Positions 35,149 to 49,296 of a DNA stretch of 64,000 bases are shown piece by piece. The notes beneath the pieces were generated by a model that had not been told where the DNA came from, made no database searches, and saw only the letters and a program-made list of their open reading frames with translations. The first letter of the stretch is position 1; each line of letters begins with the position of its first letter. The DNA is from Planktothrix rubescens CCAP 1459/22 (lineage in GTDB: Bacteria > Cyanobacteriota > Cyanobacteriia > Cyanobacteriales > Microcoleaceae). The DNA is taken from contig LR882958.1 of assembly GCA_904830895.1 (NCBI GenBank), positions 186,001 to 250,000 of the forward strand, in the 5' to 3' direction. The position numbers and the translations under genes are program-made.

Positions 35149-38100
35149 TTATACAGGTGTAGTTTCTGGGGGTTTACCTTCCGAAATTGGGGCTGATTTC
35201 CCTTCAGAATGACCGTTATTACCCTTAGTTTCTAACGGACGAGCGGCCATATATTCATACATTTTCCAACGGGTACTGACGTCTTCTTGGGCTTCTTTTA
35301 ACAACCGTTTGGCATCAGCAGGTTTGCTCTTGGTCAACATTTTGAAACGGTTTTCCGCATACATAGACGCCTCAACGGTTTTCTTAGGTGATTTAGAATC
35401 CAAAATTAACGGGTTTTTGCCTGCTTCTTTCAAGTCGGGGTTATACCGATACAGTAACCAACGGCCACTTTCCACCAGATCTTTTTGATGGGTCATAGCC
35501 GTTGTCATATTAATCCCGTGGGCAATACAGTGAGAATAGGCAATAATAATTGATGGCCCGTCGTAGGCTTCCGCTTCCAAGAACGCCTTCAGCGTGTGTT
35601 CATCCTTGGCCCCCATCGCCACACTCGCCACATAAACGTTACCGTAGGTCATGGCAATTAGGCCTAAGTCCTTCTTGGGTGACGCTTTTCCTCCGGCTGC
35701 AAACTTAGCAACCGCGCCGCGGGGGGTGGCTTTCGAGGACTGACCCCCGGTGTTGGAATAAACTTCGGTATCCAAAACCAAAATATTAACGTTACGGCCA
35801 CTGGCAATAACATGATCTAAGCCACCGTAACCAATATCATAGGCCCAACCATCTCCCCCAATAATCCAAACGGATTTTTTAACTAAATAATCAGCCAAAC
35901 TGAGTAACTGTTGGGCGTCAGGGGAATTGACTCCTTGCAGTTTTTCTTTGAGTTGGACGACCAGTTTCCGTTGTTCCCAAATATCAGCCTCTGATTTTTG
36001 GGAATTATCAGTAATTTGCGTAACTAAATTATCCCCGACGTCGCCGCCTAGTTTATGTAACAATTCCAGAGCAAACCCAGCGTGTTTGTCAATGGACATA
36101 CGGAAGCCTAAACCAAATTCGGCGTTATCTTCAAATAAGCTATTAGACCAAGCCGGGCCGCGACCGTCGGCGTTTGTTGTCCAGGGGGTTGTGGGTAAGT
36201 TCCCGCCATAAATAGAGGAACATCCGGTGGCGTTAGCCACGATCATCCGATCGCCAAATAACTGCGTGACTAACTTAATATAGGGAGTTTCGCCACATCC
36301 GCCACAGGCGCCGGAGAACTCAAATAACGGTTCTTGCCATTGTTGTTGACGGATCAAATCTGGCCGTAATTTTAACCGATCGGGGTTGGGAATACCCAGG
36401 AAAAAGTCCCAATTCGTCGCTTCTTGTTCCCGCAGGGGTAACTGGGGTTCCATGTTGATCGCTTTTCTTGAAGGCATGGATTTATTTTTTGCCGGGCAAA
36501 CATCCACACAGATGCCACATCCGGTACAGTCTTCCGGGGCAACTTGGATGGTGAATTTTTCCCCGGTAAAGACTTTATCCTTAACGTTGGTAAATTTGAA
36601 ACTGGCGGGGGCGTTTTCCAGGGCAGCCTCATCGTAAGCTTTACCCCGAATTGTGGCATGGGGACAAACCATCACACATTTACCACACTGGATACAGACA
36701 TCCGCATCCCAAACCGGGATATCCTGGGCGACGTTGCGTTTTTCCCATTTGGAGGTTCCGGTGGGATAAGTACCATCGCAGGGCAGTTTACTAACGGGTA
36801 AATCATCCCCCCGTCCGGCGATCATCATGCCTTCAACTTCTTTAACAAAGGTAGGGGCTCCGACGGATACGGGTTCGGCCCGCCGTAGTAGAGACGTGCC
36901 ATGGCGCGTCTCTACAACATTGGCAACGTTGACTTCATAAAGGTGTTCTAGGGTCTCATCAACGGCCTTTAAGTTTAAGCGAACAATTTCTGCTCCTTTC
37001 TTACCATAGGTTTTTTCGATCGCTTTTTTGATTTGGGCGATCGCTTCTTCCCTTGGCAATACTTTCGCTAAGGCAAAGAAACACACCTGCATAATAGTAT
37101 TGATCCGGTTTCCCATCCCCGTATCACGGGCAACTTTATTGGCATCAATAACATAGAATTTCAGATTTTTTCTAACAATATCTTCCTGAATTTCTAAGGG
37201 CAGATATTCCCAAACTTGATCGGGGCCGTATGGACTATTTAAGAGGAAAGTTGAACCTTCCATCGCGCATTGGAGAACGTCTAATCTTTCGATAAACGTC
37301 CATTGATGGCAACCGATAAAATTAGCTTGACTAATTAAATAAATCGACCGGATCGGTTGCGGCCCAAAACGCAGGTGAGAAACGGTAACAGCCCCGGATT
37401 TTTTGGAGTCATAAACAAAATATCCTTGGGCATAATTATCGGTTTCTTCCCCAATAATTTTGATTGAGTTTTTATTCGCGCCAACGGTACCATCTGCACC
37501 TAAACCGTAGAACATCGCCCGCACCACGTTATCGGGTTCGGTGGAGAAGTTGGGATCGTATTCTAAAGATGTGTGGCTGACATCATCATTAATACCGATG
37601 GTAAAGTGATTTTTGGGTTTAACCCCCCCTTGATAAGTAACCCCCTCTTGATCCCCGCCTTGGTAAGGGGGGGTTGGGGGGGTAATATTCTCAAAAATAC
37701 TCTTAACCATTGCCGGGTTAAATTCCTTGGAAGATAACCCATAACGTCCACCTACTAAGACTTTAAGATTTTTAATCTTAGCTTTAAGAGTATCGTTATC
37801 TCCTAACATCACTTCTTGAACCGCCGTAACCACATCCAAATAGAGAGGTTCTCCACTAGAACCGGGTTCTTTTGTCCGATCTAAAACCGCGATCGCTTTG
37901 ACAGTTTCTGGCAGTTCAGCAATTAATTGTTCCCCATCCCAAGGCCGATATAATCGAACTTTTAATACCCCTAATTTTTCCCCTTGGGCATTCAAATAAT
38001 CCACGGTTTCATGGACGGTTTCACAACCGGAACCCATGAGAATAATTACCCGTTCGGCATCGGGGGCGCCGTGATATTCAAATAGTTTATAATTACGTCC

Positions 38101-38865
38101 CGTCCGTTGCCCCAATTTATCCATTGCCCGTTGTACAATTTCGGGGGTTTGATCATAAAAAATATTAACGGTTTCTCGGCCTTGGAAATAAACATCGGGG
38201 TTTTGGGCCGTTCCTCGCAGGACAGGACGGTCAGGTGTTAAAGCGCGGTTGCGATGTTCATAAACGTATTTATCATCGATTAATTCTCGGATATCACTAT
38301 CCTCTAATAGTTCAATTTTTTGGACTTCATGGGAGGTACGAAATCCGTCAAAAAAGTGAATAAAAGGAATTCGTGATTCTAGGGTGGATGCCTGGGCAAT
38401 TAAGGCCATATCCTGGGCTTCCTGCACCGAGGCGGAACACAACAGGGCGAACCCCGTGGCCCTAGCTGCCATCACATCACTATGGTCGCCGAAAATAGAT
38501 AACCCTTGGGCGGCTAAGGAACGGGCGGCCACTTGGATCACGGCACAGGTTAACTCTCCCGCGATTTTGTAGAGGTTGGGGAGCATTAACATTAACCCTT
38601 GGGATGCGGTGAAGGTGGTTGTCAGGGAACCCGCTTGTAAAGCCCCGTGTACGGCCCCAGCCGCCCCGCCTTCGCTTTGCATTTCTACCACGGCCGGAAC
38701 CGTCCCCCAGAGGTTTTTATCCCCCACGGAGGCCCAAGCATCAGCCCATTCTCCCATGGGTGAGGACGGGGTGATCGGATAAATGGCGATAACTTCACTC
38801 AAACGATAAGCAACACGAGCAACGGCTTCGTTACCATCTAGGGTTGCATAATTTTTTGTATTCAT
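35149..38865 (-). CDS. nifJ: Pyruvate:ferredoxin (flavodoxin) oxidoreductase
   Basis: Oxidatively decarboxylates pyruvate to acetyl-CoA and passes electrons to ferredoxin or flavodoxin; in cyanobacteria it serves fermentative and mixotrophic metabolism. 1238 residues from the ATG at 38865 (MNTKNYATLDGNEAVARVAYR), with AGAGAGGAA just upstream; the longer frame to 38958 crosses another repeat. Two [4Fe-4S] motifs (CIQCGKCVMVCP and CTGCGICVDVCP) and the TPP domain (GGCGETPY; GDGWAYDIGYGGLDH) are intact. Two in-frame repeat insertions are present: PPTPPYQGGDQEGVTYQGG (37613-37695) and ETRHGTSLLRRAEP (36890-36920), explaining a length above the usual 1190-1200. Confidence 0.96.
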   Translation of the reverse strand: MNTKNYATLDGNEAVARVAYRLSEVIAIYPITPSSPMGEWADAWASVGDKNLWGTVPAVVEMQSEGGAAGAVHGALQAGSLTTTFTASQGLMLMLPNLYKIAGELTCAVIQVAARSLAAQGLSIFGDHSDVMAARATGFALLCSASVQEAQDMALIAQASTLESRIPFIHFFDGFRTSHEVQKIELLEDSDIRELIDDKYVYEHRNRALTPDRPVLRGTAQNPDVYFQGRETVNIFYDQTPEIVQRAMDKLGQRTGRNYKLFEYHGAPDAERVIILMGSGCETVHETVDYLNAQGEKLGVLKVRLYRPWDGEQLIAELPETVKAIAVLDRTKEPGSSGEPLYLDVVTAVQEVMLGDNDTLKAKIKNLKVLVGGRYGLSSKEFNPAMVKSIFENITPPTPPYQGGDQEGVTYQGGVKPKNHFTIGINDDVSHTSLEYDPNFSTEPDNVVRAMFYGLGADGTVGANKNSIKIIGEETDNYAQGYFVYDSKKSGAVTVSHLRFGPQPIRSIYLISQANFIGCHQWTFIERLDVLQCAMEGSTFLLNSPYGPDQVWEYLPLEIQEDIVRKNLKFYVIDANKVARDTGMGNRINTIMQVCFFALAKVLPREEAIAQIKKAIEKTYGKKGAEIVRLNLKAVDETLEHLYEVNVANVVETRHGTSLLRRAEPVSVGAPTFVKEVEGMMIAGRGDDLPVSKLPCDGTYPTGTSKWEKRNVAQDIPVWDADVCIQCGKCVMVCPHATIRGKAYDEAALENAPASFKFTNVKDKVFTGEKFTIQVAPEDCTGCGICVDVCPAKNKSMPSRKAINMEPQLPLREQEATNWDFFLGIPNPDRLKLRPDLIRQQQWQEPLFEFSGACGGCGETPYIKLVTQLFGDRMIVANATGCSSIYGGNLPTTPWTTNADGRGPAWSNSLFEDNAEFGLGFRMSIDKHAGFALELLHKLGGDVGDNLVTQITDNSQKSEADIWEQRKLVVQLKEKLQGVNSPDAQQLLSLADYLVKKSVWIIGGDGWAYDIGYGGLDHVIASGRNVNILVLDTEVYSNTGGQSSKATPRGAVAKFAAGGKASPKKDLGLIAMTYGNVYVASVAMGAKDEHTLKAFLEAEAYDGPSIIIAYSHCIAHGINMTTAMTHQKDLVESGRWLLYRYNPDLKEAGKNPLILDSKSPKKTVEASMYAENRFKMLTKSKPADAKRLLKEAQEDVSTRWKMYEYMAARPLETKGNNGHSEGKSAPISEGKPPETTPV
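36890..36917. repeat. GTAGAGACGTGCCATGGCGCGTCTCTAC repeat inside nifJ
   Basis: A nearly perfect 28-base palindrome (arms GTAGAGACG/CGTCTCTAC) contributes TRHGTSLLR to the protein. A relative lies after the DedA gene (5708-5735). Confidence 0.85.
37625..37690. repeat. C/G-rich palindromic repeat inside nifJ
   Basis: AACCCCCCCTTGATAAGTAA and CCTTGGTAAGGGGGGGTTGG form inverted arms encoding PPTPPYQGG and TYQGG. It is the same family as in sfsA and the intergenic copies. Confidence 0.8.
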
Positions 38866-39234
38866 TCTTGAAATTCCTCTCTTTAATAAAAACTTGATGC
38901 GATGGCGTAGCCGCCACTTTGTGGCATCGCCCGCTTTCCTACAGAATTCTTTTGGCAATTTACGCGCCTGAATTCATACTTGGTGATGTTTAGTTGGAAT
39001 TTACGATCATTGTAATTCTGTAGTTAAACAGACGGAATTTTCCTTAACAATTAATTCAGCTTTCCCTAATAATCTCCGTCGTTGTTTAATTGAGGGTTTT
39101 CCATAGGTAAATCCTGATCGAGATTAAAACATCCTTAAATTTTGATTAAGAATTTTTGAGGTCTACTTTCCCTGAGTTACTGCTTTAGATCATCTAATAA
39201 AAATGGGGAAAAGTGGATCATTGCTTAACGTTTT
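38866..39234. other. nifJ-hypC intergenic region
   Basis: 369 bases with no convincing gene. A palindromic repeat (GCGATGGCGTAGCC ... GGCATCGC, about 38899-38932) lies in the presumed nifJ leader, and the rest is AT-rich. Both flanking genes read on the minus strand, so the nifJ promoter and any hypC terminator must lie here. No clear sigma-70 pair stands out by eye. Confidence 0.5.
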
Positions 39235-39468: not shown

Positions 39469-39876
39469 CGGGTGCACCTAAAAATGTTACGTTTTTTGAA
39501 GCAAGGAGGGAAAACTGATGAAAAATCCAGACCATTTCTTGTGGTAGGGATTGTCCCAGTATTTCAGTCCGATTAATACCACATCCATTATTAACCCAGG
39601 CCGATTAATTCTTTTCTTTATTTTAATACTTTTTTCCATAAATTAGCAGTAGACTTACAACTTAGGAGAGAAGTTGGAACCCAACCCAGAATTATCGAGA
39701 TAAACAACACAACCGTTGTTTATACAACTCTCAACCTAGTCTATAATCCTTGAGTCCCCAAAGGTTCATGATTAAATTTGTGACCCTTTTGTGGTGAACT
39801 GAACCCAACTTTTCTAAAGGTATATTTGATTACAAAATGAGTGTCAAAATCCACATCATTAGTAGAGAACAGAACT
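39469..39876. other. hypC-hoxE divergent control region
   Basis: About 400 bases without a real gene. It holds the 9+6+9 inverted repeat described at 39700-39723. AT-rich sequence on both sides would contain the divergent hypC and hox promoters. In other cyanobacteria LexA and AbrB-like proteins bind hox upstream regions; I cannot identify their sites here with confidence. Confidence 0.55.
39700..39723. promoter_or_regulatory. Perfect inverted repeat ATAAACAAC-N6-GTTGTTTAT upstream of hox
   Basis: Nine-base arms (39700-39708, 39715-39723) separated by ACAACC are perfectly complementary. The site is 154-177 bases before the hoxE ATG and 232 bases before the hypC ATG. The geometry suits a dimeric transcription factor binding site; the identity of the factor is unknown. 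A transcript hairpin is less likely because of AT content and the lack of a T run. Confidence 0.5.
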
Positions 39877-40407
39877 ATGCAATCTTCTACGGTAACGACT
39901 GCAAAAGCCGATAAACCCAAAGCTGGAGCCACAAAAGGAGGCGATAAACGGTTTAAAGTCCTGGATATGACCATGAAGCGCAACCAATATCGTCAGGACG
40001 CCTTAATTGAGGTGCTACATAAAGCCCAAGAATCCTTTGGCTTTTTAGAAGAAGATGTTCTAATTTATGTGGCCAGAAATCTGAAACTTCCCCTCAGTTA
40101 TGTCTATGGAGTCGCCACCTTCTATCATTTATTCTCCCTTAAACCCAATGGCGCTCATACCTGTGTGGTTTGTTTAGGAACAGCTTGTTATGTCAAAGGG
40201 GGCGGGGATGTCTTAACCGCCTTAGAAGCCCGAACCGGAATTAAAGCCGGGGAAACCACCGCCGATGGTCAAATTTCGATTATGACCGCCCGTTGTATTG
40301 GGGCCTGTGGTATTGCTCCGGCCGTTGTCTTTGATGGCAAAGTAGCCGCCCAACAGACCTCGGAAATGGCCTGCGATCGCATGGCGGCATGGGAGCAGGG
40401 GGAGTAA
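39877..40407 (+). CDS. hoxE: Bidirectional hydrogenase diaphorase subunit HoxE
   Basis: NuoE-like [2Fe-2S] subunit of the pentameric NAD(P)-linked NiFe hydrogenase. 176 residues from the ATG at 39877; a GTG at 39841 would add 12 poorly conserved residues. The thioredoxin-like fold has the four-Cys cluster pattern [11 protein letters not shown] ... [10 protein letters not shown]. The helical N-terminal half ([49 protein letters not shown]) is typical of NuoE. First gene of the hox operon and transcribed away from hypC. HoxE couples the complex to ferredoxin or NAD(P)H electron donors. Confidence 0.95.
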
Positions 40408-40687: not shown

Positions 40688-42304
40688 ATGGAATATAGCG
40701 AATTATTAGAATTAGCCGAGAAGGAACAAAAATCCCAAAAACCGATCCGGGTGCATTGTTGTACCTCAACCGGATGTGTGGCCTCAAATTCCTTGGGTGT
40801 CAAAGACCAAATGGATGCAGCCGTGAAAGCCGCCGGACTTGAGGAAAGAGTGCAAGTAGTCGGGGTCGGTTGCATGGGATTTTGTGGCCGGGGGCCGATC
40901 GTAGAAGTCGAACCCGTCGGACTCCAATACGAGAGAGTGACGCCCGAAGAAGCCCCCTCTATTATTGAAGCCCTGAATGGGGGAGAGGCTAAACCCGTCC
41001 TAGGCGATCGCCACCATCCCTTTTTTAGTGGCCAACTGCTAATTGTTCGAGAAAATAGCGGTAAAATTGACCCGGAAAAAATTGGTGAATATATCGCCGT
41101 AGGTGGATACCAAGCCCTGCACCATGCCGTTTATGAAATGAGTCCGGCCGAGGTGGTAGCTGAAATTACTAAATCTGGGCTCCGGGGTCGAGGCGGGGCC
41201 GGATATCCTACGGGATTAAAATGGGCCACCGTTGCCAAAATGCCCCCCGGACAGAAATATGTGATTTGTAACGCCGATGAAGGAGATCCCGGCGCCTTTA
41301 TGGATCGGAGTGTGTTGGAAAGTGACCCCCATCGGATCTTAGAAGGAATGGCGATCGCTGGATATGCTGTTGGTGCGACCCAGGGTTATATCTATGTCCG
41401 GGCCGAATATCCCCTGGCCATTTCCCGTCTACAAAAAGCCATTCAACAGGCCAAACGCCAAGGGATTTTAGGGAGTCAAGTCTTTGGATCGGGGATAGAT
41501 TTTCGCATTGATATTCGGGTGGGGGCGGGAGCCTTTGTATGTGGGGAAGAAACCGCCCTAATTGCCTCCATTGATGGGGGACGTGGCACTCCTCGCCCTC
41601 GCCCGCCCTATCCCGCCGTTTCCGGGTTATGGGGGGAGCCCACCTTAATTAATAACGTCGAAACCTTAGCCAATATTGCCCCAATTATTAAAAAAGGTAG
41701 CGACTGGTTTTCCAGTATCGGCACAGAAAAAAGCAAGGGGACTAAAATTTTCTCCCTCACGGGCAAAATTCGGAATACCGGTTTAATTGAAGTCCCCATG
41801 GGAATTAGTTTACGGACAATTATCGAGGACATGGGGGGCGGTATTCCCGGCGGGGTGAAGGTGAAAGCCGTGCAAACTGGAGGGCCATCGGGAGGTTGTA
41901 TTCCCGCAGAACATTTGGATACCCCGGTAGATTACGAATCCTTGGCCCAATTAGGATCTATGATGGGGTCAGGGGGTATGGTGGTACTGGACGAAGATAC
42001 CAGTATGGTGCAAGTTGCCCAATTCTATATGGAATTCTGTCGGGGGGAAACCTGCGGAAAATGTGTTCCCTGCCGCACCGGAACAGTCCAACTGTATCAA
42101 ATGTTAACCAAAATTCTCAATAAACAAGCTACTACCGCAGATATTGAGAAAATGAAACTGTTGTCGGAAATGGTCAAAGCCACCAGTTTATGCGGACTCG
42201 GACAAACAGCCCCTAACCCGGTCTTGAGTACGTTGCGTTATTTTCCAGAGGAATATCAGGCATTATTGCAACCAGAAGAAAGCGGACGGGTTTCGGGGTC
42301 TTAA
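40688..42304 (+). CDS. hoxF: Bidirectional hydrogenase diaphorase subunit HoxF
   Basis: NAD(P)H-binding flavoprotein of the hydrogenase, 538 residues. The N-terminal thioredoxin-like [2Fe-2S] domain has Cys25/30 and Cys62/66 (CCTSTGC, GCMGFCG). The NuoF core has the FMN/NADH signatures [36 protein letters not shown] and [14 protein letters not shown], and the C-terminal [4Fe-4S] ligands [15 protein letters not shown] plus a later Cys in SLCGLGQ. It follows the repeat-filled gap after hoxE. The absence of an additional C-terminal domain matches cyanobacterial HoxF. Confidence 0.97.
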
Positions 42305-42415: not shown

Positions 42416-44065
42416 ATGTTTTGCGAACAATGTGAACAAACCGCCAGTGGAAATGGCTGTCATCAATGGGGGGCTTGTGGTAAAAGTCCAGAAGTTAATT
42501 CAATCCAAGATTTATTAGTCTATTGCTTACGCAGTATTGCCCCCATTGCTTTAAAAGCTTATGAGTTAGGTATTCCTAATCGAGAAATTGATCGTTTTAC
42601 CTGTGAAGCGATGTTTTCAACGATGACGAATGTTAACTTTAGTACGAAGCGATTTGCTGATTCTGCCCAACAGGTTTTACAATTGCGAAAAACCTTAAAA
42701 CAAGCTGTTGAAAATCAGAGTCCCACCCCAATTTCCTGGCCAGAAATTTGTAATTATCAGCCGGATTTTGAGGGGGATTTATCCGAACAGGGACAACAGT
42801 TTGCCTTAGATTTAATTCAAAAAGCCAGTGGGAATATTGATATCTATTCCTTGCAATTAACCACCATTTATGGCATTAAAGGATTAGCTTCCTACGCCTT
42901 CCACGCCTACGAACTGGGTCAGGAAGATGAGAAGATTTATCAGTTTATCTATGAAGCCTTAATTGCTTTAGATCGGCAGGATTTAGACTTAAATGCCTGG
43001 GTGGGTTTAGCCTTGAAAGTCGGAGAAATGAACCTACGGGCGATGGAATTATTAGATGCCGGACATACCGGACATTATGGACATCCCACCCCGACAAGTG
43101 TTCCCTTAAATCATCGTCAAGGTAAGGCTATTTTAGTCTCTGGACATGATATTAAACAGTTAGAAGCCCTGTTAAAACAAACCGTAGATACGGGGATTAC
43201 GGTTTATACCCACGGGGAATTATTACCCGCCCATGGATATCCGATTTTAAAACAAAATTATCCCCATTTGTTCGGACATTTTGGCACAGCATGGCAGAAT
43301 CAAACCAAAGATTTTGCTAAGTTTCCTGGGGCGATTGTGGTGACAACAAATTGTTTAATGCCGCCCCATGAAACCTATGATCAAAAACTGTTTACTCTTG
43401 GGCCCGTGGGCTATCCGGGGTTAGGCTATTTACCCTCCGATGCTGATGGTATTCCTGACTTTACTCCAGTGATTCAAGAAGCGCTAGAACTCCCCGGCTT
43501 TTTGGATGATGAAACCCCCCGGGAAGTGAAAACCGGATTTGCCCATAATGCAGTTTTAAGTGTAGCTGATCATGTGGTTGAAGCGGTTAAAGCAGGGAAA
43601 ATTCGTCACTTCTTTTTAGTCGGCGGTTGTGATGGGGCCAAACCCGGACGGAGTTACTATACAGAATTTGTGGAAAAAGTTCCCCAAGATTGTGTTGTCC
43701 TCACCTTAGCTTGTGGAAAATTCCGCTTTTTTGATAAAGAATTAGGTGAAATTGGTAACATTCCTCGATTGATGGATGTGGGACAATGTAATGATGCTTA
43801 TTCTGCCATTCAAATTGCTTTAGGATTAGCTAAAGCTTTTGATATTGGTGTGAATGAATTACCCCTATCAATGATTTTGTCATGGTATGAACAAAAAGCT
43901 GTAGCGGTGTTATTAACTCTGTTATATTTGGGGATTCAAGACATTCGTTTAGGCCCGACATTACCCGCTTTTATTTCTCCGAATGTGTTCCAATTACTAT
44001 CGGACACCTATCATCTGAAAGCGATTTCTACCCCCGATGAAGATTTAGCCGCTTGTTTAGCCTAG
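42416..44065 (+). CDS. hcp: Hybrid cluster protein (hydroxylamine/NO reductase)
   Basis: 549 residues. The N-terminal cluster ligands are Cys3-x2-Cys6-x8-Cys15-x5-Cys21 (CEQCEQTASGNGCHQWGAC), the spacing of class I Hcp from anaerobes, which carries a cubane [4Fe-4S] rather than the [2Fe-2S] type of enterobacteria. Hybrid-cluster ligand regions are visible as YTHGELLPAHGYP, VTTNCLMPP, FLVGGCDGAKPGRSYYTEF, LTLACGKFRF and DVGQCNDAYSA. Hcp reduces NO (formerly hydroxylamine) under anoxia. It lies between hoxF and hoxU on the same strand, so is likely expressed with the hydrogenase and may draw electrons from it or from its diaphorase. Confidence 0.95.
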   Translation: MFCEQCEQTASGNGCHQWGACGKSPEVNSIQDLLVYCLRSIAPIALKAYELGIPNREIDRFTCEAMFSTMTNVNFSTKRFADSAQQVLQLRKTLKQAVENQSPTPISWPEICNYQPDFEGDLSEQGQQFALDLIQKASGNIDIYSLQLTTIYGIKGLASYAFHAYELGQEDEKIYQFIYEALIALDRQDLDLNAWVGLALKVGEMNLRAMELLDAGHTGHYGHPTPTSVPLNHRQGKAILVSGHDIKQLEALLKQTVDTGITVYTHGELLPAHGYPILKQNYPHLFGHFGTAWQNQTKDFAKFPGAIVVTTNCLMPPHETYDQKLFTLGPVGYPGLGYLPSDADGIPDFTPVIQEALELPGFLDDETPREVKTGFAHNAVLSVADHVVEAVKAGKIRHFFLVGGCDGAKPGRSYYTEFVEKVPQDCVVLTLACGKFRFFDKELGEIGNIPRLMDVGQCNDAYSAIQIALGLAKAFDIGVNELPLSMILSWYEQKAVAVLLTLLYLGIQDIRLGPTLPAFISPNVFQLLSDTYHLKAISTPDEDLAACLA

Positions 44066-44317: not shown

Positions 44318-45034
44318 ATGTCCGTAAAAACCCTAAAAATAGATGGAATTGATGTTGCTGCTGAAGAAGGAACATCTGTACTCAAAGCCGCCGAAGAAGC
44401 CGGGGTCAAAATTCCCAAACTCTGTCATTTAGACGGGGTTTCTGATGTGGGTGCTTGTCGGTTATGCCTAGTAGAAATTAAAGGAATTAATCGTTTATTA
44501 CCAGCTTGTGTAACCGAAGTTGCAGAAGGTATGGAAGTCTGTACCCAAACCCCCCAACTGCAAGAATATCGACGCATGACCGTGGAGTTATTATTCGCAG
44601 AAGGAAATCATGTTTGCGCCGTTTGTGTTGCTAATGGTAACTGCGAATTACAGGACGTTGCAATTGAAGTGGGCATGGATCATAGCCGTTTTCCCTATCG
44701 CTTTCCTGACCGGGAAGTAGACATTTCTCATAGTAAATTCGGCATCGATCATAACCGTTGTATTATGTGTACTCGGTGTGTGAGAGTTTGTGCTGAAATT
44801 GAAGGAGCCCACGTCTGGGATGTCGGCTATCGGGGAGCCGCAGCTAAAATTATTAGTGGTTTAAATCAACCCTGGGGGGATGTGGATGCTTGTACCTCCT
44901 GTGGTAAATGTGTCGATGCTTGTCCCACGGGTTCAATCTTTAAAAAAGGTACTACCACGGCGGAAATGCAACGGGATAGTGAAAAACTAGAATTCTTAGC
45001 AGATGCAAGAGGGAAACATCAATGGACAAGATAA
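44318..45034 (+). CDS. hoxU: Bidirectional hydrogenase diaphorase subunit HoxU
   Basis: 238 residues, NuoG N-terminal-like iron-sulfur protein linking the diaphorase to the hydrogenase. An N-terminal [2Fe-2S] domain (CHLDGVSDVGACRLCLVEI ... LPACVTEV) is followed by a His/Cys-type cluster (HVCAVCVANGNCELQ) and two [4Fe-4S] motifs (CIMCTRCVRVC and CTSCGKCVDACPTGS). The stop overlaps hoxY by 13 bases, so translation is coupled. A good GGAGATG Shine-Dalgarno-like stretch precedes the ATG. Confidence 0.97.
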   Translation: MSVKTLKIDGIDVAAEEGTSVLKAAEEAGVKIPKLCHLDGVSDVGACRLCLVEIKGINRLLPACVTEVAEGMEVCTQTPQLQEYRRMTVELLFAEGNHVCAVCVANGNCELQDVAIEVGMDHSRFPYRFPDREVDISHSKFGIDHNRCIMCTRCVRVCAEIEGAHVWDVGYRGAAAKIISGLNQPWGDVDACTSCGKCVDACPTGSIFKKGTTTAEMQRDSEKLEFLADARGKHQWTR

Positions 45035-45570
45035 AATTTGCTACGGTTTGGTTGGCGGGTTGTTCCGGTTGCCATATGTCGTTTTTAGACTTAGATGAAT
45101 GGCTGTTTGATCTCGCGGAAAAAGTCGATGTTGTCTTTAGTCCGGTGGGTTGTGATATCAAAGAATATCCTGAAAATGTCGATGTTTGTTTAGTGGAAGG
45201 GGCGGTTGCCAATGAAGAAAATTTAGAGTTATTATATCAAGTCAGAAAACGGACTAAACTCTTAATTTCCTTTGGAGATTGTGCGGTAACAGCTAATGTT
45301 CCGGCGATGAGAAATATGTTAGGCAGTACGGAACCTGTCTTAAAACGCTGTTATTTGGAACTGAGTGATATTGGGGCTCAATTGCCTAATGAACCGGGTA
45401 TTGTGCCTGAACTTTTAGAGCGAGTTCGTCCGATTCATGAATTAGTTGATATTGACATCTTTTTACCCGGATGTCCTCCTTCTGCGGATAGAATTAAATC
45501 GGCGATCGCTCCTTTATTAGAAGGAAAAAGACCCGTAATGGAAGGACGGGAAATGATCAAATTCGGTTAA
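45022..45570 (+). CDS. hoxY: NiFe hydrogenase small subunit HoxY
   Basis: 182 residues, the small subunit carrying the proximal [4Fe-4S] cluster. The cluster ligands are in AGCSGCHMSFLDLDE at the N terminus, then VCLVEGAVAN, ISFGDCAVTANVP and the C-terminal PGCPPSADRI. No Tat signal peptide is present, consistent with a cytoplasmic/thylakoid-associated bidirectional enzyme. It overlaps hoxU at its start. It is followed by 168 bases containing three GTTGTTGCGCTTAAGCGC-type repeats before hoxH. Confidence 0.97.
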   Translation: MDKIKFATVWLAGCSGCHMSFLDLDEWLFDLAEKVDVVFSPVGCDIKEYPENVDVCLVEGAVANEENLELLYQVRKRTKLLISFGDCAVTANVPAMRNMLGSTEPVLKRCYLELSDIGAQLPNEPGIVPELLERVRPIHELVDIDIFLPGCPPSADRIKSAIAPLLEGKRPVMEGREMIKFG

Positions 45571-45572
45571 TC

Positions 45573-45691
45573 GTTGTTGCGCTTAAGCGCACGAGAGGAT
45601 ATAAATTATAACCCTTAATTTTCATCCTCAAATCTAATAAAGATGCGCTGAAGCGCAACAACAATTTTTAGATGCGCTGAAGCGCAACAAC
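45573..45691. repeat. GTTGTTGCGC(TT/TG)AAGCGC palindromic repeats, three copies
   Basis: One copy in direct orientation (45573-45590) and two in the reverse (45644-45662, 45673-45691). The core GCGCTTAAGCGC is self-complementary. Further copies lie at 47176-47220, 47233-47277 and, in hoxW, 49558-49574. They crowd in the hox region. Confidence 0.85.
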
Positions 45692-45738: not shown

Positions 45739-47169
45739 ATGTCTAAAACCGTTATTATTGATCCCGTAACTCGGATTGAAGGTCATGCTAAAATATCAGT
45801 CTATTTAGATGATGCGGGAGAAGTCGAAAATGCCCGTTTTCACGTCGTAGAATTTCGCGGTTTTGAAAAATTCTGCGAAGGAAGACCGATGTTTGAAATG
45901 GCTGGAATTACCGCTCGAATTTGCGGAATTTGTCCCGTTAGTCACCTCTTAGCTTCTGCAAAAACCGGGGATAAAATCCTTGCAGTGCAAGTACCTCCGG
46001 CGGGGGAAAAACTGCGCCGGATGATGAATTTAGCCCAATTAATTCAATCCCATGCTTTAAGTTTTTTCCACCTCAGTAGTCCTGATTTTCTATTAGGTTG
46101 GGATAGTGATCCTGCTAAACGCAATGTCTTTGGTTTAATGGCGGCTGATCCTGATTTAGCTCGGGCAGGAATTCGCCTGCGTCAGTTCGGACAAACGGTA
46201 ATTGAACTATTAGGAGCCAGAAAAATTCATGCGGCTTGGGCCGTTCCCGGTGGGGTGCGTTCTCCCCTTTCCGATGAAGGCCGAGAATGGATTATTAACC
46301 GCTTACCTGAAGCTCGACAAACCACCGAATTAGCTATTAGTATCTTTAAGCGTTTATTAGATACGGAATTAAAAACCGAAATTGATGTTTTTGGCAAATT
46401 CCCCTCATTATTTATGGGGTTAGTTGCCCCCGATGGTACTTGGGAACACTACGGCGGACACCTAAGATTTATTGATAGTAATGGGGAAATTGTTGCCGAT
46501 GGTTTGAGTGAAGATAACTATCAAGATTTCCTGGGAGAAGCCGTTGAAAATTGGTCTTATTTGAAGTTTCCCTATTACAAACCCCTGGGATATCCCGATG
46601 GTATTTATCGCGTTGGGCCCTTAGCAAGATTGAATGTTTGTGACTGTATTGGTACCGAAGATGCAGACCGAGAATTAATTGAATTTCGGCATCGGGCGGG
46701 GGGACGGGTAGCTACTTCTTCCTTCTTTTATCATTATGCTCGTTTGGTGGAAATTCTCGCTTGTATTGAAGCCATTGAACAGTTAGTTGATGACCCTGAT
46801 ATTATCTCAAAACGGGTGCGTTCAGAGGCGGGGATTAACTGTTTAGAAGGAGTGGGAGTTAGTGAAGCTCCACGCGGCACTTTATTCCATCATTATCAAG
46901 TAGATGAAAACGGATTAATTAAGAAAGTTAACTTAATTATTGCCACCGGACAAAACAATTTAGCCATGAATAAAACCGTGACTCAAATTGCCCAACATTA
47001 TATTCATGGAAATGAGATTCCAGAGGGAATGTTAAACCGAGTCGAAGCCGGAATTCGGGCTTATGATCCTTGTTTAAGTTGTTCCACCCACGCCGTCGGA
47101 CAAATGCCTTTGCACATCCAATTAATTCAAAAGGATGGAACAGTAATTAAAGAAAAATACCGCCATTAA
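45739..47169 (+). CDS. hoxH: NiFe hydrogenase large subunit HoxH
   Basis: 476 residues carrying the Ni-Fe active site. N-terminal ligand motif [10 protein letters not shown] and C-terminal DPCLSCSTH supply the four Cys. The start [21 protein letters not shown] is typical. After the final ligand motif a 25-residue tail [12 protein letters not shown]...KEKYRH remains; in this group the tail is cut off by the protease HoxW after nickel insertion, just past the His of DPCxxCxxH. The tail is intact here, yet hoxW is truncated. It lies in the hox operon and is followed by two 45-bp palindromic repeats. Confidence 0.97.
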
Positions 47170-47175
47170 CCCCAC

Positions 47176-47277
47176 CGTTGTTGCGCTTAAGCGCAATCTT
47201 AATGGCTAAAGCCCAACAACATTTTTCAATCCCGTTGTTGCGCTTAAGCGCAATCTTAATGGCTAAAGCCCAACAAC
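47176..47277. repeat. Two direct copies of a 45-bp palindromic element
   Basis: Identical 45-base copies at 47176-47220 and 47233-47277. Each has outer arms GTTGTTG/CAACAAC and two inner palindromes, GCGCTTAAGCGC and GGCTAAAGCC. They lie between hoxH and the small ferredoxin-like gene and keep an open frame that looks like, but is not, an N-terminal extension of it. Confidence 0.9.
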
Positions 47278-47303
47278 GGATTTATGATATTAGGAGGCAA
47301 AAA

Positions 47304-47567
47304 ATGCCAAAGGAAAACTTATATTTATGTATGGGTTCTGCTTGTCATCAGCTTGGAGTGTATGAAGTGTTACCGAAATTGCAAGCCTTGATGAGTGAAT
47401 ATGATATTGATCACAAAATTGAGCTAAAAGGCTCATTTTGTTTAGAAACTTGTAGTTCGGGAATTGTGATGAAATTTAAGGACTTACATTTTATTAATAT
47501 TAGTCCTCAAAATATTGAAGATAGATTTTTGCAAGAAATTCTTCCCGCCATTAAAGATCAGAATTGA
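47304..47567 (+). CDS. Small [2Fe-2S] thioredoxin-like ferredoxin
   Basis: 87 residues starting MPKENLYLCMGSACHQLG, with AGGAGG eight bases upstream deciding this start. The open frame reaches back to 47178, but that part is repeat-coded. The fold is the NuoE C-terminal/thioredoxin-like ferredoxin with the four-Cys pattern CMGSACHQLGV ... GSFCLETCSSG. It resembles the C-terminal domain of HydC/NuoE and stand-alone ferredoxin genes beside [FeFe] hydrogenase operons of anaerobes. Ten bases separate it from the PAS gene. It could relay the redox state of the hydrogenase pool to the sensor downstream. Confidence 0.85.
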   Translation: MPKENLYLCMGSACHQLGVYEVLPKLQALMSEYDIDHKIELKGSFCLETCSSGIVMKFKDLHFINISPQNIEDRFLQEILPAIKDQN

Positions 47568-47577
47568 GATAAACACC

Positions 47578-48078
47578 ATGTTAGAAACAACTCAGAATCA
47601 CCTCTGGCAACTTTTGTGGGAATATGATCCTAACGGTTTAATTGCCGTAGATTCAGACTTGATGATTAAAGTTGTTAATCCGGCTTTTTGTAAACTATTT
47701 AATGTTGAAGCGAGTGAAATTATTGGTAAACCCGTAACCGAAATTTTAGGGAATGTAGATCATTTTAAAACTGTTTGGGAAACTAATCAGGTAATTCGGG
47801 GACGGGAAACAGAATATCCTGAATATCATTTGTATATTCGAGAGTTTATTTTTCCCATTAAGGAAGAAAATATTATTGGCTGTATTATGAGCGATATTAC
47901 CGCCGAAATGGAACGTAAAAAAGAAACGGATATAATCAAGGCAGAAACCGTTAAAAAAGTGAATGAAGTAGTTGATAATCAAATGAAAGTCGCTCAAGAA
48001 ATTGCCGGGTTATTAGGAGAAACCACCGCCGAAACTAAAATTAGTTTACTCAAAATTATTGAACTGGTGAATCAGTAA
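47578..48078 (+). CDS. PAS-domain sensor protein in the hox cluster
   Basis: 166 residues from the ATG at 47578. A single PAS domain (about 15-115: DPNGLIAVDSDLMIKVVNPAFCKLFNVEASEIIGKPVTEILG ... GCIMSDITAEMERKKE) is followed by a helical tail (KKVNEVVDNQMKVAQEIAGLLGETTAETKISLLKIIELVN) that looks like a signalling or dimerisation coiled coil but has no kinase catalytic domain. In related operons of anaerobic bacteria a PAS protein ends in a similar QEIAGLLGETTAETK segment before SpoIIE. It is therefore probably the partner of the phosphatase encoded 51 bases downstream. Cofactor not evident. Confidence 0.85.
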   Translation: MLETTQNHLWQLLWEYDPNGLIAVDSDLMIKVVNPAFCKLFNVEASEIIGKPVTEILGNVDHFKTVWETNQVIRGRETEYPEYHLYIREFIFPIKEENIIGCIMSDITAEMERKKETDIIKAETVKKVNEVVDNQMKVAQEIAGLLGETTAETKISLLKIIELVNQ

Positions 48079-48084
48079 ACTATC

Positions 48085-48099
48085 GGAAACCGGGTTTCT
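48085..48099. repeat. Dispersed CCGGGTTTCT palindrome
   Basis: GGAAACCGGGTTTCT lies in the 51-base gap between the PAS and SpoIIE genes. Same family as 128-142 and 4942-5075. Confidence 0.6.
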
Positions 48100-48129
48100 A
48101 TCTATTCCCTATATTTTAATAAAATTAAT

Positions 48130-49296
48130 ATGAGTCAAGATAACTTTTTTGATATTTGTCACCTGAGTTTGAATAAAAAAGGCGAAGAACTTTGTGGTGA
48201 CCAAGTTAAATTTACCAAAAGCGAAACTAAAAGCACTATTGTTTTATCCGATGGTTTAGGAAGTGGGGTAAAAGCGAGTATTTTAGCCACCTTGACCACG
48301 GAAATTTTAATCACCATGTTAAATGCGGATGTTCCTTTAGAGGAAGTGATTAAAACCGTGATTGGAACTTTACCTATCTGTCAGGTGAGAAAAATTGCCT
48401 ATGCAACTTTTACGATTATTTCGATTAATCATTTAACCAATGAATTTAAAGTAATTAATTTTGATAATCCGCCAATTCTTTATTTTAAAAAAGGTCGCAT
48501 TGTTAAATTAGAAACCAAAATTGATAAGATTTTAGGGAAAAAAATTCAATATTCAGAAGGAACATTAGAGCGGGGAGATTTTATTGGGGCGATTAGTGAT
48601 GGTATCCTTTATGCGGGGTTAGGGGATACGATGAATTTTGGCTGGGGTTGGGATAATATTGCTAAATACATGGAGAGAATTTTTATTAGTCAAGCGACTA
48701 ATTCTCGAACAATTATTGAGCAAGTAATGTCTGAAACCCGTTCTTTATATCGGGAAAATATTGGCGATGATGCAACTTTTGTGGGGGTTTATGTTAGAAA
48801 ACCTAACCCGGTCATGATTTTTACTGGCCCGCCTTTAGATATTACTCAGGATGAATTATATGCCGATAGGTTATTAAATTTCCCCGGCAGAAAAGTAATT
48901 TGTGGCGGAACAACTGGAAATTTAGTCGCAAATTATATGGGAGAAACTATTGAAATGGATATTGCAACCATGCGAAAAGATTTACCGCCTATTGGTAAAC
49001 TAAAAGAGGTGGATTTAGTTACAGAAGGAATTTTAACGATTTCTAAAGCCACGGAAATTTTGAGAAAATGTAAGGGGGATATTGCCCGGTTAGCTTCTGA
49101 TAATAATGGGGCGGTTTTATTGGCGCGGGAAATTATCGAAGGAGATTCGATTTATTTTTTAGTAGGTCAACAAATTAATGAGTTTTATCAGAATCCTTTA
49201 TTACCTAAAAATATTTCAATTCGTCGTAACTTAATAGAAGATTTAGTCCAGTTACTTCGCAGTCAACAAAAGGAAGTTGTGATAGAATATTGTTAA
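48130..49296 (+). CDS. SpoIIE-type PP2C serine phosphatase of the hydrogenase cluster
   Basis: 388 residues. The N-terminal 225 form a PP2C/SpoIIE phosphatase with metal-binding Asp in IVLSDGLGSGVKA, GDFIGAISDGILYAG and GDDATFVGVYV. The C-terminal domain (about 225-388: FTGPPLDITQDELYADRLLNFPGRKVICGGTTGNLVANYMGE ... SDNNGAVLLAREIIEGDSIYFLVG) is not a standard SpoIIE part and has a conserved GGTTGN loop. The opening HLSLNKKGEELCGDQV and the whole layout match SpoIIE proteins encoded with hydrogenases in clostridia-like anaerobes. The substrate is presumably a phosphoprotein, perhaps an anti-sigma-antagonist-type partner, not seen here. Confidence 0.88.
   Translation: MSQDNFFDICHLSLNKKGEELCGDQVKFTKSETKSTIVLSDGLGSGVKASILATLTTEILITMLNADVPLEEVIKTVIGTLPICQVRKIAYATFTIISINHLTNEFKVINFDNPPILYFKKGRIVKLETKIDKILGKKIQYSEGTLERGDFIGAISDGILYAGLGDTMNFGWGWDNIAKYMERIFISQATNSRTIIEQVMSETRSLYRENIGDDATFVGVYVRKPNPVMIFTGPPLDITQDELYADRLLNFPGRKVICGGTTGNLVANYMGETIEMDIATMRKDLPPIGKLKEVDLVTEGILTISKATEILRKCKGDIARLASDNNGAVLLAREIIEGDSIYFLVGQQINEFYQNPLLPKNISIRRNLIEDLVQLLRSQQKEVVIEYC

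Follow-up and report, generated by a model that had tools for sequence, protein, structure and literature searches.

A ferredoxin, PAS protein and SpoIIE-type phosphatase beside hoxH of Planktothrix rubescens: an apparent relative of the HydS/Hfs cassettes of anaerobes without the H-cluster domain

The genomic stretch analysed here (hereafter the window) comprises 64,000 nt of Planktothrix rubescens CCAP 1459/22 (contig LR882958.1, positions 186,001-250,000, forward strand) and harbours genes of the bidirectional [NiFe] hydrogenase Hox. Three consecutive genes, termed the trio below, are located among them in the order hoxH, ferredoxin, PAS protein, SpoIIE-type phosphatase and hoxW, all on the plus strand, exactly as had been proposed in the original prediction, an annotation made from the sequence alone (coordinates in Table 1). 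The gaps measure 134 bases between hoxH and the ferredoxin gene, 10 between the ferredoxin and PAS genes, 51 between the PAS and phosphatase genes and 20 between the phosphatase gene and hoxW. The phosphatase gene is present in a single copy in the genome; Planktothrix sp. PCC 11201 and P. paucivesiculata PCC 9631 have phosphatases with 98% identity to its product.

The domain assignments of the original prediction, namely a thioredoxin (TRX)-like [2Fe-2S] ferredoxin, a PAS protein without kinase and a SpoIIE-type phosphatase with an extra C-terminal domain, were all confirmed. For the ferredoxin, the Pfam family PF01257 (2Fe-2S_thioredx) scored 20.1 bits, under the cut-off of 24.8, but a profile of 14 homologues gave matches of known structure (best E 1.6e-10), namely NuoE/HydC-type subunits and the alpha subunit of an Fe-hydrogenase, and the expected ligand cysteines C9, C14, C46 and C50 were invariant in 14/14. 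The PAS protein matched PAS_9 over the cut-off (36 bits), and the Pfam scan returned PAS families only, with no kinase, no Fe_hyd match (the H-cluster domain, PF02906) and no Fe-S domain PF04060. Both of the latter domains are carried by proteins of loci L072 and L073 (handles beginning with L, G and f denote loci, genomes and families of our sample); in the putative sensory protein HydS, the Fe-S domain lies between the H-domain and PAS and follows the pattern Cx2Cx4Cx16C (PMC8163306).

The phosphatase matched SpoIIE (PF07228) over the cut-off, with 58.9 bits. Its residues D24, D41, D157 and D213-D214 were invariant in 19/19 phosphatases and aligned with the SpoIIE motifs; judging from this alignment, they probably pair with the metal-site ligands of SpoIIE, Asp610, 628, 746 and 795 (PMC3517971). 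The AlphaFold model (mean pLDDT 85.5) displayed a PP2C fold, for which Foldseek returned 5mqh (SpoIIE, E 5.5e-13) as the best match, along with 3pu9 and 3ke6. The first strand starts at residue 6, the protein has no N-terminal regulatory domain of its own, and about 160 conserved residues beyond the PP2C domain form the extra C-terminal domain. The latter had no credible Pfam match, and the best 50 of 1094 Foldseek rows obtained with the phosphatase all read as PP2C-type.

The original prediction had likened the trio to modules of [FeFe] hydrogenase operons of clostridia-like anaerobes. On plasmid pRUMAL01 of Ruminococcus albus 7, genes for Rex, adhE, a phosphotransferase, two (2Fe-2S) ferredoxins, an [Fe-Fe] hydrogenase domain protein, a SpoIIE phosphatase and a 4Fe-4S protein follow each other in one direction, the last of them matching the [FeFe] profile. 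This hydS operon holds homologues of all three window genes in the same order: identities were 35% for the ferredoxin (E 1e-12), 35% for residues 18-164 of the PAS protein against the C-terminus of the R. albus [FeFe] protein (E 4e-22) and 37.5% over 389 columns for the phosphatase, C-terminal domain included (E 6e-82), where the E-values refer to a database size set at one million letters. The tail named in the original prediction, QEIAGLLGETTAETK, is present in the window, and R. albus HydS ends nearly identically, with VQEIASLLGETTAETK; residues 140-151 of the PAS protein, QEIAGLLGETTA, were invariant in 18/18 sequences.

Other hallmarks of HydS/Hfs cassettes were likewise found: a C-terminal PAS followed by an LLGExTAET-like tail (the helix reads LLGETTAETK in the window), a SpoIIE-type phosphatase of the same family encoded by the next gene, and a TRX-like [2Fe-2S] ferredoxin upstream, which precedes most, though not all, HydS-type genes. 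In place of an [FeFe] hydrogenase in the same operon, the neighbour is hoxH (no search of this genome, G000, for [FeFe] domains was made). The predicted resemblance thus extended to gene-for-gene homology with a clostridial hydS operon, but the prediction had missed that the PAS of the anaerobes is the C-terminal part of a putative sensory hydrogenase, so that the window version is devoid of the H2-binding domain. A putative sensory group C [FeFe] enzyme was described for Ruminococcus (PMC6776011); it should be added that the label 'group C' derives from papers, the nearest NCBIfam model of HydS-type proteins being group B1 (TIGR04105), far below its cut-off. Judged by sequence, the window PAS protein appears to correspond to what remains of HydS without the H-domain and the Fe-S domain, namely its C-terminal PAS and tail, and the trio to be an H-domain-less ("headless") relative of the HydS/Hfs cassette, attached to another class of hydrogenase.

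Twenty-three loci, distributed over five phyla, encode relatives of the phosphatase with identities of 53-98%, which argues against chance similarity. Trio carriers were detected among Planktothrix, Arthrospira, Geitlerinema, Phormidium and relatives of Leptolyngbya. Upstream of 39 distinct cyanobacterial phosphatases, the PAS gene was found within 1.5 kb in 33 cases, the ferredoxin gene in 32, and a same-strand hoxH within 3.5 kb in 27, while hoxW lay within 1.1 kb downstream in 19 (loci L013, L015 and L026 have less than 1 kb of upstream sequence). The layout, which had been predicted to be non-standard for cyanobacterial hox clusters, is therefore less special than supposed and not unique to this strain, though just 11 of the 85 same-class genomes with HoxH in the phylum sample possess the phosphatase. 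Among the titles and openings of abstracts listed from open-access literature, no description of the trio beside cyanobacterial hox was found, and the word phosphatase is absent from PMC3858816 and PMC2674450.

Cassettes of HydS type with the same phosphatase occurred in small-genome members of the cyanobacterial phylum (families f42, f51 and f44, with PAS fused to the H-domain in the loci looked at), Desulfobacterota and Planctomycetota. Among 297 Desulfobacterota genomes there were 13 carriers (11 HydS-type, one short and one Cache-HAMP-receiver-PAS), among 246 Planctomycetota 14 (13 HydS-type, one short) and among 251 Chloroflexota two, both short. PF02906 domains were not found at E 1e-10 in nine cyanobacterial carriers or in G427, G428 and G429; in G430 they were found. 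The Cache-HAMP-receiver-PAS protein (G782, L148 8861-11158) bears the LLGETTAETK tail before the phosphatase and represents a third input for the cassette; since tail and phosphatase are retained behind such a different sensor, the tail looks like the output. In Acetoanaerobium noterae (L204 8001-9176), a family phosphatase without ferredoxin or PAS was located on a 2.6 Mb record that is called a plasmid and holds ribosomal-protein-like ORFs by eye. Viral contigs were considered as a source of relatives and dismissed, for three stretches matched a pattern and none proved a relative by tblastn.

Alignment of the PAS sequences (rows of less than 25 bits or less than 100 residues and identical rows left out) revealed residues that differ between the architectures. 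Cys38 was present in 38/38 headless (short) rows and 0/42 HydS-type rows; the rows are akin to one another, yet five phyla are represented in the headless group, and the residue is also missing from R. albus and Monoglobus aligned by eye. Trp10, Trp14 and Trp67 were typical of short PAS (36, 37 and 36 of 38) and occurred in none of the HydS-type rows, many of which are gapped at positions 10 and 14. Cys102 (35/38 vs 0/42) was discarded as clade-specific, as R. albus HydS has a cysteine there by eye, and only Cys38 was kept.

For the phosphatase trees, sequences of less than 150 bits or less than 330 residues were left out, giving 135 loci with 88 distinct sequences; the first tree had 66 rows (22 near-copies removed by hand) and the second 61 (8 more removed, 3 clostridial added), both being unrooted. 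Short-PAS and lone cyanobacterial sequences formed one clade with 100/99 support in both trees, and inside it photosynthetic cyanobacteria constituted one clade (100/98 and 99/99), in company with Chloroflexota, Desulfobacteraceae, Verrucomicrobiota and Planctomycetota. Beside the headless clade, in a group with 92/93 support and no firm order in the 61-row tree, were placed three clostridial sequences, three of HydS type (two from Desulfobacterota, one from Planctomycetota) and the Cache-HAMP-receiver sequence. Five small-genome sequences of the phylum (four f42, one f44) fell elsewhere, in other supported groups.

The original prediction had named transfer from an anaerobe as an alternative to ancient inheritance. 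Because the photosynthetic clade nests among other phyla and the small-genome version lies elsewhere, lateral spread of the headless cassette appears to fit better than ancestry within the phylum. An origin of the cassette before the photosynthetic and non-photosynthetic lineages of the phylum diverged would draw on the 133 further genomes of the phylum sample (144 matches minus 11) in which a family phosphatase occurs; the small-genome loci looked at are HydS-type, matching at about 1e-75, and given the topology we consider such vertical inheritance very improbable. One loss of the H-domain followed by transfer into cyanobacteria would be the simplest reading, though on unrooted trees an ancestral short PAS to which H-domains were fused repeatedly is a conceivable alternative.

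The headless cassette is associated with Hox. In the phylum sample (386 genomes, apparently the same set for phosphatase and HoxH searches, HoxH threshold E up to 1e-60), HoxH was found in 86 genomes, one of them outside the class. It was present in 11/11 carriers of the strong phosphatase vs 85 of at most 253 genomes (Fisher 3.9e-6, uncorrected for kinship), where the figure of 253 results from subtracting the 133 carriers of the HydS family outside the class from 386, so that more genomes of non-photosynthetic members could be among them. A [NiFe] large subunit was detected in 15/15 genomes, a family that also holds uptake hydrogenases (the count includes Planktothrix G005, without phosphatase). 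Furthermore, 6/6 non-cyanobacterial genomes without the H-domain (G427, G428, G429, G430, G534 and G782, thus including one side architecture) encode HoxH of 46-71% identity amid hoxFUYH. Hox is also present in the five cyanobacterial genomes whose trio is not seen beside hoxH, namely those of L026 (where the contig ends), L029, L030, L031 and L033, with hoxEFUYH on other stretches (hoxF of L029 in two pieces). Among HydS-type genomes, HoxH had no match at 1e-20 in G909 and G710 and a 32% match in G1195.

The surroundings of the trio are listed in Table 1. The hcp gene between hoxF and hoxU has the same place in Lyngbya and Arthrospira, and in Lyngbya majuscula, where hoxH is followed by other genes, hoxEF-hcp-hoxUYH is transcribed as a unit and hoxW separately (PMC2674450). 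Divergent from hoxE, positions 35149-38958 contain a gene that by eye looks like one for pyruvate:ferredoxin oxidoreductase (PFOR, nifJ). Promoter and terminator scans of the gap between hoxH and the trio gave no promoter-like or terminator-like site, and the promoter scan yielded 5 promoter-like matches vs 12.4 in shuffles. The repeat GTTGTTGCGCTTAAGCGC has six matches in the window at ≤3 mismatches vs 0.01 expected, and five of the six lie between genes of the hox cluster. The match of hoxW to other Planktothrix is lost at about 49548, some 10 bases before an opposite-strand GTTGTTGCGC repeat, and the frame ends in cysS. The truncation first suggested failed hydrogenase maturation, an idea dropped since full-length hoxW together with hypA and hypB is located elsewhere in the genome, at 2.72 Mb (G000:C1:2722433).

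Table 1. Features of the hox region of the window, with positions counted from its first nucleotide
Feature	Position	Strand	Remarks
hoxE	39841-40407	+	ORF call
hoxF	40688-42304	+	ORF call
hcp (hybrid cluster protein)	42416-44065	+	ORF call; between hoxF and hoxU
hoxU	44318-45034	+	ORF call
hoxY	45022-45570	+	ORF call
hoxH, [NiFe] bidirectional hydrogenase large subunit	45739-47169	+	upstream neighbour of the trio
Gap between hoxH and the trio	47170-47303	+	two GTTGTTGCGCTTAAGCGC repeat copies
TRX-like [2Fe-2S] ferredoxin, 87 aa	47304-47567	+	four conserved cysteines; small ferredoxins of the R. albus hydS operon are homologues
PAS protein, 166 aa	47578-48078	+	PAS domain and C-terminal stretch VAQEIAGLLGETTAETK
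SpoIIE/RsbU-type PP2C serine phosphatase, 388 aa	48130-49296	+	extra C-terminal domain at about residues 225-388, end KEVxxEYC
hoxW fragment, truncated, 103 aa	49317-49628	+	about 77 codons match other Planktothrix, then the match breaks off
Repeat GTTGTTGCGCTTAAGCGC	45573-45691, 47177-47251, 8368		pattern match, ≤3 mismatches

The GC content of the trio (0.32-0.35, below the 0.40 of the window), the repeats nearby and the Planktothrix genome with hox and no phosphatase would suit a mobile module without hydrogenase role that came to lie beside hox by chance. Such a passenger is improbable in our opinion, as cyanobacterial phosphatases keep 53-59% identity to those of other phyla and the position after hoxH recurs.

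Taken together, we consider it somewhat better than an even chance that the trio is an H-domain-less HydS/Hfs relative that was brought into filamentous cyanobacteria, became tied to Hox and works as a redox cassette. Homology, gene order, conservation of the catalytic residues, the clades and the link to Hox are observed, whereas the signal path from ferredoxin through PAS to phosphatase is inferred in each of its steps, as are its direction and target. The [2Fe-2S] ferredoxin, the likely redox input as the sole Fe-S protein in the trio, would exchange electrons with the Hox diaphorase or with the ferredoxin/NAD(P)H pool, and the PAS protein would sense whether it is oxidised or reduced, with the clade-specific Cys38 as a possible means. 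SpoIIE provides an analogy: there, two switch helices of the phosphatase are in contact with a long regulatory helix (PMC5468089), and in the window the C-terminal helix of the PAS protein may play this part in trans by docking on the corresponding helices of the phosphatase. The latter would then remove phosphate from serine or threonine of a partner, for which a STAS protein is suggested by analogy, and thereby tune dark or anoxic hydrogen and fermentation functions. By eye, response-regulator/histidine-kinase-like genes were seen in 8 of 25 non-cyanobacterial or small-genome cassette loci, and GTPase-like, lyase-like and radical-SAM-like families in 3-4 loci each; among such recurrent neighbours (families in at least 3 of the 25 loci), inspection by eye, without a profile search, disclosed neither a serine/threonine kinase nor a STAS partner.

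A bolder form of this proposal, compatible with it, is that Hox itself replaced the missing H-domain, with PAS and ferredoxin binding HoxEFU or HoxYH and reporting H2 turnover. It would agree with the absence of the H-domain alongside conserved ferredoxin, PAS tail and phosphatase, with an association to Hox that holds even when the trio is not adjacent, and with a Chloroflexota genome in which hoxE-like and hoxF-like genes directly precede the trio. Against it, several carriers do not have the trio beside hox, and we advance this form tentatively, as an unlikely one. The same reserve applies to the broader scenario, which we deem doubtful, that a HydS-type H2 sensor lost its H-cluster domain in a single event, that Hox became the sensor in trans, read via the [2Fe-2S] ferredoxin and a PAS with gained Cys38, and that the cassette spread with Hox over five phyla, regulation thus being swapped between unrelated hydrogenase classes.

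The trio might instead be a general anoxic or fermentative switch, found near hox as both are used in the dark, with Hox not being the input; we regard this as possible and lean against it. The genes hfsABCD of Thermoanaerobacterium provide the precedent: deletion of hfsA or hfsB led to higher ethanol yield and adhE expression, and deletion of hfsC or hfsD to no rise in ethanol (PMC5707799). By eye, Rex-like genes were seen in 6 of the same 25 loci, and R. albus has an annotated Rex; these and the PFOR-like gene of the window point in the same direction, whereas the co-occurrence with Hox (11/11 and 6/6) speaks against such a switch.

Several observations weigh against this preferred reading. 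HoxH of at least 45% identity occurs in 36/297 Desulfobacterota (counted by hand; 38 with G957, a row with one stop, and G758, a split match), so that two of two there is weak (p 0.014), and two of 11 HydS-type carriers in this phylum, G956 and G961, also possess HoxH (G857 has a 38% match). In the Sedimentisphaerales genome, the short trio is followed by another small ferredoxin-like ORF and an [FeFe] hydrogenase, Hox-like genes being elsewhere in the genome, an arrangement that is a possible intermediate. Family f13, Planktothrix assembly L023 and Acetoanaerobium have the phosphatase with neither PAS nor ferredoxin adjacent, and the trio is thus not an obligate unit; in f13, ferredoxin and PAS genes follow hoxH in G231, the ferredoxin alone was found in G197 and neither within 18-19 kb in G157 and G167, while L023 has phosphatase and hoxW with the other trio genes missing upstream. 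Planktothrix G005 (L169) has hox with hoxW directly after hoxH and no phosphatase match. Moreover, HydS was proposed to signal to an adjacent Ser/Thr kinase (PMC5707799), which the R. albus phosphotransferase may be, and this gene has no counterpart among the neighbours of the window trio. Finally, in an operon deletion of Thermoanaerobacterium thermosaccharolyticum, hfsD alone, without hfsC, restored the high-ethanol phenotype (PMC11837493), implying that the phosphatase is not required for that effect. The interpretation offered by the original prediction is, as a whole, partly supported.

To our knowledge, control of cyanobacterial Hox beyond transcription is poorly known, and a cassette whose anaerobe relatives were proposed as H2 sensors would offer a genetic entry point to it. 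With the free-standing PAS, the output half of HydS is available apart from the H-cluster, which makes the step from PAS to phosphatase approachable with soluble proteins and no hydrogenase maturation, and Planktothrix of the G005 type, with hox and no phosphatase, represents a natural comparison strain.

Among characterised systems, the PPM phosphatases SpoIIE, RsbU and RsbX share the PP2C fold and metal-site motifs with the window phosphatase, which differs from them in its extra C-terminal domain and lack of an N-terminal regulatory domain. The regulatory [NiFe] hydrogenase of Ralstonia with HoxJ (PMC5707799, PMC8163306) likewise employs a PAS protein reading the state of a hydrogenase, but HoxJ phosphorylates HoxA, whereas the window PAS protein has no kinase domain. 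The hfsABCD operon, set against the window by description and not by sequence, resembles it in PAS-bearing HfsB and serine-phosphatase-like HfsC and differs in that HfsB is an [FeFe] hydrogenase with PAS and HfsD is another [FeFe] hydrogenase (PMC11837493, PMC5707799). Another close parallel is R. albus hydS, with the same order of ferredoxin, PAS-bearing protein and SpoIIE phosphatase, the tail LLGETTAETK and three-way homology; there, however, PAS is fused behind the H-cluster domain, with a phosphotransferase gene upstream and an [FeFe]-like gene downstream, whereas the window has a free-standing PAS protein and [NiFe] Hox as its hydrogenase.

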